A stretch of 64,000 nt of DNA, from assembly GCF_010367455.1 (NCBI RefSeq), contig NZ_WRPR01000005.1:1-64000 (forward strand). The letters are read 5' to 3'. The notes beneath the pieces were generated by a model. The model was not told the DNA's origin, ran no database searches, and saw only the letters and a program-made list of their open reading frames with translations. A program made the position numbers and the translations under genes. Positions 36,246 through 42,509 of this stretch are shown here, piece by piece (the first letter of the stretch is position 1; every line of letters starts with the position of its first letter). Origin of the DNA: Candidatus Laterigemmans baculatus. GTDB lineage: Bacteria; Planctomycetota; Planctomycetia; Pirellulales; Pirellulaceae.

Positions 36246-36311
36246 CGTTTAACGGCAAGCCGAAGGCGACTGCTTTTCAAAACACAGTCGCCTTCGGCTT
36301 GCCGTTAAACG
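36246..36311. terminator. Perfect 27-bp palindrome, likely bidirectional terminator
   Basis: Left arm 36246-36272 and right arm 36285-36311 are exact 27-bp inverted complements with a 12-base loop. It lies between convergent genes. The same palindrome occurs at 42269-42335, and its right arm starts the window. Confidence 0.8.
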
Positions 36312-40229: not shown

Positions 40230-40257
40230 GGCGATTCACGCCCCCCCGTGAATCGCC
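40230..40257. promoter_or_regulatory. Perfect 11-bp hairpin before the Pup-like gene
   Basis: Arms GGCGATTCACG (40230-40240) and CGTGAATCGCC (40247-40257) with a loop of six C. It ends 50 bp before the ATG at 40308. It may terminate the upstream oxidoreductase message or act as a leader structure; there is no U-run after it, so a regulatory stem is as likely. Confidence 0.55.
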
Positions 40258-40307: not shown

Positions 40308-40502
40308 ATGACCGCACAATCGATTGCCGGAGTTCGTCCCCAAGGTCCCCCCGCCGAGCTGCCCCAGGGCGAACGAGCGGCGCGGACGTTTGCCGATCAG
40401 CCTCAGCAGCTGCATCGGCTCGCCTCCGAGATTCTCAGCGATGCGACGCACCGCCCGCTGGAGCTGCTCGAGCGGTTTGATACGCAGCAGCAGGGCGAGT
40501 GA
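40308..40502 (+). CDS. Pup/UBact-like small protein, candidate tag for the adjacent ligase
   Basis: 64 residues from ATG 40308, preceded by GGAG at 40296-40299. The N-terminal ~30 residues are rich in Pro, Gly and Gln (PQGPPAELPQGE), so probably disordered. The C-terminal half is helical (QLHRLASEILSD, RPLELLERFDTQQQGE). It ends in Gly-Glu, as mature Pup (GG-Glu) and UBact do. Length equals that of many Pups. The stop overlaps the GTG start of the PafA/Dop homologue (GTGA), implying coupling. No significant sequence identity to Pup is visible apart from composition and the C-terminus, so the tag role is inferred. An in-frame ATG at 40293 would add five residues. Confidence 0.62.
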   Translation: MTAQSIAGVRPQGPPAELPQGERAARTFADQPQQLHRLASEILSDATHRPLELLERFDTQQQGE

Positions 40503-42223
40503 GAGCGAAGCCGGCCCCGATACTCGAGCGTCTGATCGGGCTGGAAACCGAGTACGCCACGCTGCTGCAGTTGCCGCCCGACCAGCAAGTGCCTCCTTCG
40601 CGGCAAGCGGTGTATGCGGCCGTTTGCGAGCAGATCGCCGCTCGGATTCCCATCGCTCGCGGACGTTACGACTCCGACACGATCTTTCTCGCCAACGGCG
40701 GCGCCTTTTCCATCGAAAGCTCGCCCAACCGGCTCGACCGGCCCGGCGGGTTGATCGAGGGTGCAACGGCCGAATCGTGCTCGCCGGCGCGGGTCGTGGA
40801 AGCCCAGCGAGCCCAGGACCGGATGATCGCCGAAGCGGCGGCCGCCTCCGCGATCCCCGGTGAGCTGCGGATCGTTAAGAACAGCTGCGACGCGTACGGC
40901 CACATCTATGGGTGCCAAGAGAACTACGCGGCACCGGTCGCCACCGGGCTGCGGCTGGCCCTCTACTGGATGCTGCTGGTGATGATGATGCCCGCAGCGG
41001 TCCTGTACTGGTTCGCGTGCATCATGATCCTCGGAAGCGAGCTGGCGGTGCTGTTCGCAATTCGCTCGCTCGGCCGGCTGCTCGGCTTCGCCGCAACGAA
41101 TCAGGGTTCGGCGGGCGATAGCGTGGCGGGCGACGCAGCCGATGCGAATCAGTTGCCGCTCTCGCTTCTGCGAGTCACTGCGGTGATCCTGCGGGTGATC
41201 AGCCTCCCGGCAGCCGGCATGCTCTACCTGATCGCCCGCTTCGTGGCCTTTCGCGAACAGCGCAAATTCCTGACCGCCTTCCTGGTCTCTCGCGTGGTGC
41301 TCACTGGAGCCGGGCACGTCGATCGCCGCAATCGCTTTCGGCTCTCCAGCAAAGCGCTGGCGATCGACACGGTCACCGGCTTTGGAGGCTATCTCGGCGA
41401 GCGTCCGATCTACGTGTTTCACCACTGGCTCCAGCAGCTCTGCGGTCGGTCGCTGCTCTCGATTCGTTCGCTCGGTGAGATGTTTCGTCAACGCCAGCGG
41501 CTGCAGATCGGTCTCAGCGATTCGAACATCTCCGACACGGCCGAGTACCTCAAGGTCGGCGCGACCGCCCTGGTTTTGGACCTGATCGAAGCTGGAGGCG
41601 GCCGCGATCTGCCTCGCTTGCAGCGTCCCATCCAAGCGCTGCACCGGATCACCTGCGACTGGAACCTCGTCTCCCGCGTCTTGACCAACCGCGGCGAGCT
41701 GTCGGCTCTCGACATCCAGCGGGCCTACCTGCAGGCCTGCATGCGATTCGTCGAGGCCGCTGGCGACGCCGCCCCACGAGAGGCCCATCGGATCCTCGAG
41801 CGGTGGGAAGCGACGCTCGCAGCCCTAGCCGCCTTTCGCTCCTCGGAGATCGACCCGCTGCCAGCCCTCGGCCACGTCGACTGGCTGACTAAGAAGTGGA
41901 TGCTCGACCGCCTCGATTGCGAAGGCGTGGAGCAGGCCGCCGCCGCCGAGCGGTGGATGGCCCGCAAAAAGATCGATATCCGCTACCACGAGCTGTCCGA
42001 TGACAGCTACTTCGCCCGGCTGCGCGCGGTCGCCCCGCAGCTGAGTTCGGTCGACCCGGCGGGCATCGATCTGGCCCTGCGGATGCCTCCGCTGAATTCG
42101 CCCGCTCTGCGGCGGGGACAATTGATCCGCGAATTCTCCGGTGGCACCGAGCCGGTTGCCGTCGATTGGTCGCACCTCGTAATCGGCTCGGGCCGGACGC
42201 GGCGGATCGTCGCCTTCGATTAG
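40499..42223 (+). CDS. PafA/Dop-family Pup ligase/deamidase homologue with membrane insertion
   Basis: 574 residues; PafA and Dop have ~480-500. Family signatures in order: GLETEYA (14-20), FLANGGAFSIESSP (63-76), EGATAESCSP (87-96), KNSCDAYGHIYGCQENY (127-143), FLVSRVVLTGAG (261-272), SDSNISDTAEYLKVG (340-354), DIQRAYL, VDWLTKKWMLDR, IRYHELSDD and VDWSHLV. The catalytic Asp of PafA (LYLDVG) aligns with Glu73. Between GCQENY and the LVSRVVLTGAG strand, where PafA has ~10 residues, there are ~105, including hydrophobic stretches 151-188 and 222-250. Such an even pair would tether a cytoplasmic enzyme to the membrane. The GTG start overlaps the Pup-like stop. Ligase versus deamidase cannot be told from sequence. 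Confidence 0.85.
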   Translation: MRAKPAPILERLIGLETEYATLLQLPPDQQVPPSRQAVYAAVCEQIAARIPIARGRYDSDTIFLANGGAFSIESSPNRLDRPGGLIEGATAESCSPARVVEAQRAQDRMIAEAAAASAIPGELRIVKNSCDAYGHIYGCQENYAAPVATGLRLALYWMLLVMMMPAAVLYWFACIMILGSELAVLFAIRSLGRLLGFAATNQGSAGDSVAGDAADANQLPLSLLRVTAVILRVISLPAAGMLYLIARFVAFREQRKFLTAFLVSRVVLTGAGHVDRRNRFRLSSKALAIDTVTGFGGYLGERPIYVFHHWLQQLCGRSLLSIRSLGEMFRQRQRLQIGLSDSNISDTAEYLKVGATALVLDLIEAGGGRDLPRLQRPIQALHRITCDWNLVSRVLTNRGELSALDIQRAYLQACMRFVEAAGDAAPREAHRILERWEATLAALAAFRSSEIDPLPALGHVDWLTKKWMLDRLDCEGVEQAAAAERWMARKKIDIRYHELSDDSYFARLRAVAPQLSSVDPAGIDLALRMPPLNSPALRRGQLIREFSGGTEPVAVDWSHLVIGSGRTRRIVAFD

Positions 42224-42268
42224 CCCCCGCGCGAACGCCGAGCGGGAAGGCGTCAGCTGCCACCCAAT

Positions 42269-42335
42269 CGTTTCACGGCAAGCCGAAGGCGACTGTTCTC
42301 CGGAAACACCGACGCCTTCGGCTCGCCGTTAAACG
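42269..42335. terminator. Palindrome of the 36246-36311 family
   Basis: Left arm 42269-42295 and right arm 42310-42335 have few mismatches and share the GGCAAGCCGAAGGCGACTG core with 36246-36272. It lies just after the ligase gene and is a probable terminator. The conserved tail seen at 36312 is missing. Confidence 0.75.
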
Positions 42336-42509
42336 AATGTTCAAGACACCGGAACACCCCTCCTACGGAAGAACGTTACCACCTACACGAGGAACATTGT
42401 TTGCACTCACGCTCTGCCCCTAAGAAAGCGCGCCTCAAGGGAGCGCATTGCGTGGGCCTTCCTCTGCGAATGGGGGGCTTGAGCGGGGGTCGAGTATGGG
42501 AGGAATTCG

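Follow-up and report, generated by a model that had tools for sequence, protein, structure and literature searches.

We find that a small gene encoding a Pup-like protein that ends in Gly-Glu and the gene for a PafA/Dop-family enzyme with a hydrophobic insert occur together across membrane-type loci, and that the enzyme keeps the conserved chemistry motifs and the modelled fold of its family. No proteasome-family gene was found in the genome that carries the pair. From these features we infer conjugation, topology, substrates and fate, and consider it probable that the two genes form a membrane-anchored, pupylation-like system whose tagged proteins meet a fate other than the proteasome. The original prediction, drawn from the window (the whole 64,000-nucleotide stretch of DNA analysed here), had proposed a Pup-like conjugation pair without a proteasome. 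This proposal is supported: the small gene is conserved, and for 60 of the 61 membrane-type loci it was found either beside the ligase or elsewhere in the genome. The key feature that it overlooked is the hydrophobic insert of the ligase. The features of the locus are collected in Table 1.

Table 1. Features of the tag-ligase locus, with positions in the window.
Feature	Positions	Strand	Evidence
Tag gene, Pup-type, 64 aa	40308..40502	+	ORF translation, alignment, AlphaFold2 model
Membrane-type Pup ligase (PafA/Dop family), 574 aa	40499..42223	+	Pfam, alignment, model, structure comparison
Glu73 codon, aligned with active-site Asp of PafA/Dop	40715..40717	+	Alignment
Hydrophobic insert of ligase, modelled helices 150-194 and 221-248	40946..41242	+	Alignment, AlphaFold2, hydrophobicity windows
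Strong palindrome (REP-like or terminator) just after ligase gene	42268..42336	+	DNA fold z -6.3

The noted overlap of a 64-residue, Gly-Glu-ending protein with a PafA/Dop homologue is confirmed by the reading frames: the two genes share the GTGA at 40499-40502, the ligase ORF begins with the GTG at 40499, and its product matches the Pfam Pup_ligase family (PF03136) at E 1.8e-73 over model positions 1-440 of 441. The translated tag runs from MTAQSIAG to FDTQQQGE. Its ATG at 40308 is preceded by a GGAG stretch; an ATG five codons earlier and a GTG at 40248, both in frame, leave the start uncertain. An AlphaFold2 model (mean pLDDT 74) agrees with the anticipated disordered N-terminus and helical C-terminus, with helices at residues 28-48 and 50-56 in blocks of pLDDT 82-92. 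The tag thus has the Pup traits of small size, disordered N-terminus, helical C-terminal part and G[EQ] end. No Pup-named family model in Pfam or NCBIfam matched any of 24 tags at E up to 1, and this tag family, which has no Pfam or NCBIfam model, could receive one.

An alignment of these 24 tags, whose rows were picked as ORFs ending GE, shows Asp45, Gly63 and Glu64 to be invariant and Tyr53 nearly so; within rows chosen in this way, the expected conservation of the C-terminus is seen as an invariant Gly-Glu. Among the tags assigned to the 56 aligned ligases, where linked tags were likewise chosen for ending GE, position -20 is Asp in 55 of 56 and position -12 is Tyr or Phe in 55 of 56 (Tyr in 52). 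The tag of the window is the exception at -12, with Leu where those 52 carry Tyr. The expectation of purifying selection on the small gene stood in part. Across ten close pairs, dN/dS of the tag is below 1 in six and slightly above 1 in two (L102/L107 and L093/L110), and two pairs are identical. The tag is probably under purifying selection, a signal that from sequence comparison is neither uniform nor strong for so small a gene.

The association of tag and ligase was followed through 61 membrane-type loci, 60 fetched from relatives plus the locus of the window. A tag ORF, chosen for ending GE, lies within 260 nt upstream of the ligase in 41 of them. One of the other 20 is cut by a contig end (L065), and in the remaining 19 a profile search placed a tag gene elsewhere in the genome, so that a tag, linked or unlinked, was found everywhere except at the contig-end locus. 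An interim label of "tagless ligases" for the 20 loci was overturned in 19 by this whole-genome search. The prediction that the small gene is always next to the ligase is borne out at the 41 linked loci and, taken literally, fails at the 19 uncut loci, where the tag is unlinked; by the letter of the original test this would refute the proposal, were it not that each of these genomes has its tag gene at another place. Best E-values of the unlinked tags range from 1.5e-7 to 0.11, and three matches are weak (G737, 0.029; G671, 0.08; G755, 0.11); in G671 an unrelated chance match scores about equally, at 0.09. The three weak tags have flanking genes in common with the stronger tags of G564 and G540. 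All 19 unlinked tags end in DGE, preceded by RSN in 16 and by KSN, RCN or RCD in the others.

Chance placement of such an ORF is rare. Of 59 ligases (two of the 61, near a sequence end, being excluded), 40 have an ORF of at least 35 aa that ends in GE and stops at most 260 nt upstream; of 306 other long ORFs at these loci, one has, with distances taken from the GxExE motif for ligases and from the first Met for other ORFs. The only search blind to the GE end used a profile without the last two tag columns. Run on 80 named loci, many of them from genomes that also served to train it, it picked up a tag ORF at 55, and every one of these ends in GE and lies just before the ligase. The 80 are the best of 148 relatives found with the ligase alignment; a contig search with the single sequence found none. 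The original claim that the tag already ends in Glu, so that no deamidase is needed, agrees with these 55 tags. They include one from Paraliomyxa miuraensis (L240), a myxobacterial relative, and one from a Thermoanaerobaculia MAG (L243). Among the 25 loci without a profile match, 16 are titled Rhodopirellula, Rubripirellula or Stieleria, and several begin at a contig end; in L244, a MAG titled Proteobacteria, the blind profile found no tag within the 6-kb flanks. Since the tag is adjacent in Rhodopirellula europaea 6C (L190) and none lies in the flanks of R. baltica strain BR-MGV (L170), adjacent and non-adjacent arrangements both occur. Twelve relatives in our tree have a long insert. Eight of these have an upstream ORF ending GE, or AE in L015, where the long-type tag ends in GAE; a tag was found by profile in L023, and the short flanks of L014, L016 and L020 held no convincing tag.

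Sequence identity among the tags tracks that among the ligases (Mantel r 0.74, exceeded in 0 of 5000 permutations), a correlation that descent alone can give. Genomes with two membrane ligases are more telling on pairing: G544, G584 and G737 each have two tags, the second tag of G737 being a weak match. We found no third conserved gene; no neighbour within about 5 kb is common to more than 8 of the 61 loci, antisense overlaps of the ligase aside. Larger neighbour clusters were rejected as conserved genes, being antisense ORFs that overlap the ligase itself. Beside the unlinked tags of one genus, a large protein with a hydrophobic N-terminus and a second protein are common to seven loci; in another genus, a Ser/Thr kinase and further genes are common to five. 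Because the neighbours differ by genus, we draw no tag function from them. The large protein lies at 6202-8643 in L157, where it has no Pfam match, and at 6103-8472 in L146. The palindrome that follows the ligase gene in the window belongs to the surroundings and is not part of the tagging system. It recurs at 36254-36303 of the window, and two further contigs of the genome carry a 20-base core of it, one exact copy each.

The enzyme falls within the PafA/Dop family and far below the cut-offs of the NCBIfam equivalogs for PafA (150.5 of 551.3 bits) and Dop (135.6 of 492.3 bits). It is the sole PF03136 gene found in a 5.76-Mb genome that is 96% complete, where an actinobacterial-type system would have two paralogues, PafA and Dop. 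Its AlphaFold2 model, built on the 56-row alignment (pLDDT 92, pTM 0.92), has the glutamine-synthetase-like fold of solved Dop and PafA. The best solved match is Dop 4b0r (Z 41.7, 2.5 A, 415 residues), and PafA with Pup (4bjr_B) follows at Z 36.1 (3.0 A, 422 residues). The best match outside the family reaches Z 20.5, with YbdK at Z 20.4; the Foldseek ranking agrees with that by Z-score, and the 50 matches listed contain only Dop/PafA and glutamine-synthetase-fold enzymes. Eight residues (G14, E16, E18, E87, E92, R265, R334 and D341) are invariant in the alignment, and Q/H140 and K/R285 are kept in 56 of 56. The motifs retained are GxExE with the acidic residues after it, [QH]x[NS], an Arg/Lys and, in strand 6, the Asp; their roles are taken from Iyer et al. 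2008 (PMC2588565). At the active-site Asp place, all 56 aligned membrane-type ligases and each of the 40 in the tree carry Glu, vs Asp in five of five Dop and four of five PafA controls. This Asp, which follows an NG motif, is catalytic in PafA/Dop, and Glu73 of the ligase stands in its position, a replacement that counts against our reading.

The N-terminal region of the enzyme, as estimated from pairwise alignments, is intermediate in length between those of PafA and Dop, and so sequence alone does not settle whether it is a ligase or a hydrolase. A Dop-like hydrolase, or another tag-processing enzyme, would fit the slightly closer match of the model to Dop than to PafA, and a passage of Hecht et al. 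2020 (PMC7947786) describes planctomycete homologues that partly align with the Dop-loop. No other family member turned up in the genome, however, so such a hydrolase would be without any conjugate to act on, and a tag that ends in Glu in every blind case offers no Gln to deamidate. We regard this alternative as very unlikely and prefer a ligase.

The hydrophobic insert follows GCQENY (residues 138-143), a motif of core strand 4. The loop between its two modelled helices is poorly predicted, with residues 203-214 under pLDDT 50. At least one strongly hydrophobic 19-residue stretch lies in the insert of 56 of 56 ligases, and at least two that do not overlap in 52; the number of non-overlapping windows is three in the ligase of the window and ranges from one to three across the 56 rows. 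In seven of the 56 a further hydrophobic stretch lies elsewhere in the protein. The model suggests that the insert is likely to be a membrane anchor that leaves the catalytic domain in the cytoplasm. It is conceivable that the tag is joined to a non-protein membrane amine, such as phosphatidylethanolamine or a polyamine, giving a membrane-anchored tag as a convergent analogue of Atg8 lipidation. Besides the insert itself, this would suit the failure to find an ARC-type unfoldase or proteasome that could take tagged proteins, and a fold superfamily that contains small-molecule carboxylate-amine ligases such as YbdK. The nearest structural relatives nevertheless work on Pup and its protein conjugates, the tag has a Pup-like architecture, and there is no sign of a lipid site, all of which make lipid or polyamine attachment a slim prospect beside the attachment to proteins that we favour.

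The membrane-type enzymes form a group of their own. In a tree that contained no actinobacterial sequences, 40 of them fall on one side of a branch with support of 100/98, vs the Dop and PafA controls, and within the tree long-insert and short-insert ligases are not cleanly separated. PF03136 is present in 38 of 392 genomes phylum-wide and in 64 of 396 from the order, counts that include non-membrane forms. Among the named records that the membrane-type alignment retrieved are ones from Rhodopirellula, Rubripirellula, Stieleria, Roseimaritima, Candidatus Uabimicrobium amorphum, Paraliomyxa miuraensis and a Thermoanaerobaculia MAG.

No proteasome, Mpa/ARC ATPase or second PafA/Dop gene had been seen in the window, and this observation extends to the whole genome by PF00227, PF16450, full-length TIGR03689 and PF03136. 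PF00227, which includes both HslV and proteasome subunits, has no match there (10 of 14 control genomes were positive). The OB domain of the proteasomal ATPase, PF16450, is also without a match in this genome; it is insensitive when used alone, having matched three of five sister genomes that encode Dop/PafA pairs, and of 20 membrane-ligase genomes one gave a weak match (G361, E 4e-4, a 302-aa frame). The full-length ARC/Mpa model TIGR03689 gives nothing beyond two AAA-core matches in the genome of the window (at most 149.6 bits), and likewise nothing beyond AAA-core matches in six other membrane-ligase genomes tested (at most 153.3 bits). In the sister genomes it matches at full length, with 228-313 bits, beside the pair in five of five, vs none of seven membrane-ligase genomes. 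Across 59 membrane-ligase genomes, PF00227 has one match in 25 and two in none. A scan of seven of these genes identified three as HslV and matched the other four to no NCBIfam model. The four (G638:C280, G697:C6, G505:C28 and G650:C1, of loci L247, L248, L249 and L253) are frames of about 250-330 aa with weak PF00227 matches, and are possibly Anbu-like.

The sister systems of other planctomycetes deserve a description of their own. Non-membrane Dop/PafA pairs lie at 727-9740 of L258, 3600-8969 of L259, 3688-12999 of L260, 1671-7766 of L261 and 4467-13496 of L262, with a full-length ARC/Mpa-type ATPase beside each of the five. A GGQ-ending tag accompanies the pair in L259 and L261, and also in L004 of G013. 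A ThiF/E1-like protein is encoded beside the pair in L258, L260 and L262, and a JAB-like protein (a weak Pfam match) in L258, L260, L261 and L262. No PF00227 gene was found in G013, G016 or G050. It would be remarkable if a Pup-type system lay beside E1 and JAB genes of the ubiquitin type in the absence of a proteasome.

In the mechanism that we propose for the membrane-type pair, the ligase would be anchored to the cytoplasmic side of the inner membrane by the helical insert after core strand 4. The two C-terminal helices of the tag may dock on the enzyme, which would phosphorylate the C-terminal Glu on its side-chain carboxylate at the expense of ATP. The activated Glu would then be joined to an amine, most likely on lysines of membrane or membrane-near proteins, and the disordered N-terminus of the tag could serve as a handle read by the cell. 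As neither a proteasome nor an ARC ATPase was found, the tag may act as a regulatory mark or may direct its targets to another protease. If another protease receives the tagged proteins, the membrane AAA+ protease FtsH would be the most plausible. A regulatory mark and delivery to FtsH are the fates that we would rank first.

It is possible that a single bifunctional enzyme puts the tag on and takes it off again, forming a reversible switch on membrane proteins without degradation. The presence of one enzyme, with neither ARC-type ATPase nor proteasome found, is compatible with such a switch, and it could coexist with the mechanism above. We nonetheless think it rather improbable. Taken more broadly, the notion that the tag is joined to membrane lipids or other amines, or is a non-degradative mark on membrane proteins, is unlikely on balance and still worth keeping in view. 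If true, it would represent ubiquitin-like, even Atg8-like, membrane marking of separate origin in bacteria, running in several co-diverged tag-ligase pairs and sometimes with two in one cell. More generally, if the tag is conjugated as we propose, then a ubiquitin-like modification operates at the membrane of bacteria that lack a proteasome, as foreseen in 2008. With tag and ligase closely paired in several phyla, an invariant Glu and genomes that carry two pairs, the system can be put to the test directly, in E. coli as well as in planctomycetes that are in culture, for example Rhodopirellula, Stieleria or Roseimaritima.

The pair resembles the actinobacterial Pup-PafA-Dop-Mpa-proteasome system in its fold, in most active-site motifs, and in a small tag with a helical C-terminal part and a terminal Glu. 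Unlike that system, it has one enzyme in place of two, a hydrophobic insert, Glu for the active-site Asp and a tag encoded with Glu, and no ARC-type ATPase or proteasome was found with it. UBact, of Nitrospirae and other phyla, is a small tag with a G[EQ] end that is encoded beside PafA/Dop genes in operons that carry proteasome and ATPase genes. It shares with the tags described here a G[EQ] end outside Actinobacteria; the present tags have no NCBIfam match. Corynebacterium and some other Actinobacteria have Pup conjugation genes without proteasome genes. They are like the genome of the window in this respect, and unlike it in having kept the proteasomal ATPase. A section of one study concerns pupylation in some Actinobacteria such as Corynebacterium (PMC3511204), and in a part of Hecht et al. 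2020 (PMC7947786) single-copy planctomycete homologues are taken as outgroup; another passage there describes the labelling of E. coli proteins by PafA together with PupE.

The closest precedent is the 2008 work of Iyer, Burroughs and Aravind, who already foresaw such a gene pair for Rhodopirellula baltica and Plesiocystis pacifica, with the insert, a G[EQ] tag and no proteasome linkage in two genomes, and proposed that it modifies membrane proteins (PMC2588565). The idea of the gene pair was thus already described. Our search of open-licence papers found neither experiments nor later work on a membrane-type Pup ligase, and the locus is therefore of a known but unproven kind. In agreement with their description, the PafA homologue here has a hydrophobic insert after core strand 4, the Pup-like protein ends in G[EQ], and proteasome genes are not linked. 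The two accounts may differ in the number of membrane segments, of which Iyer et al. counted four in the insert, where the ligase of the window has two long modelled helices and three hydrophobic windows. Iyer et al. also state that Pup is always adjacent, where we find an unlinked tag in 19 uncut loci of 61, and report a linked membrane-protein gene for their two genomes, where we see no generally conserved neighbour. What the present analysis adds to their proposal is the close pairing of tag and ligase, the unlinked tags, the separate clade with its Glu, the genomes with two pairs and the missing ARC-type ATPase.
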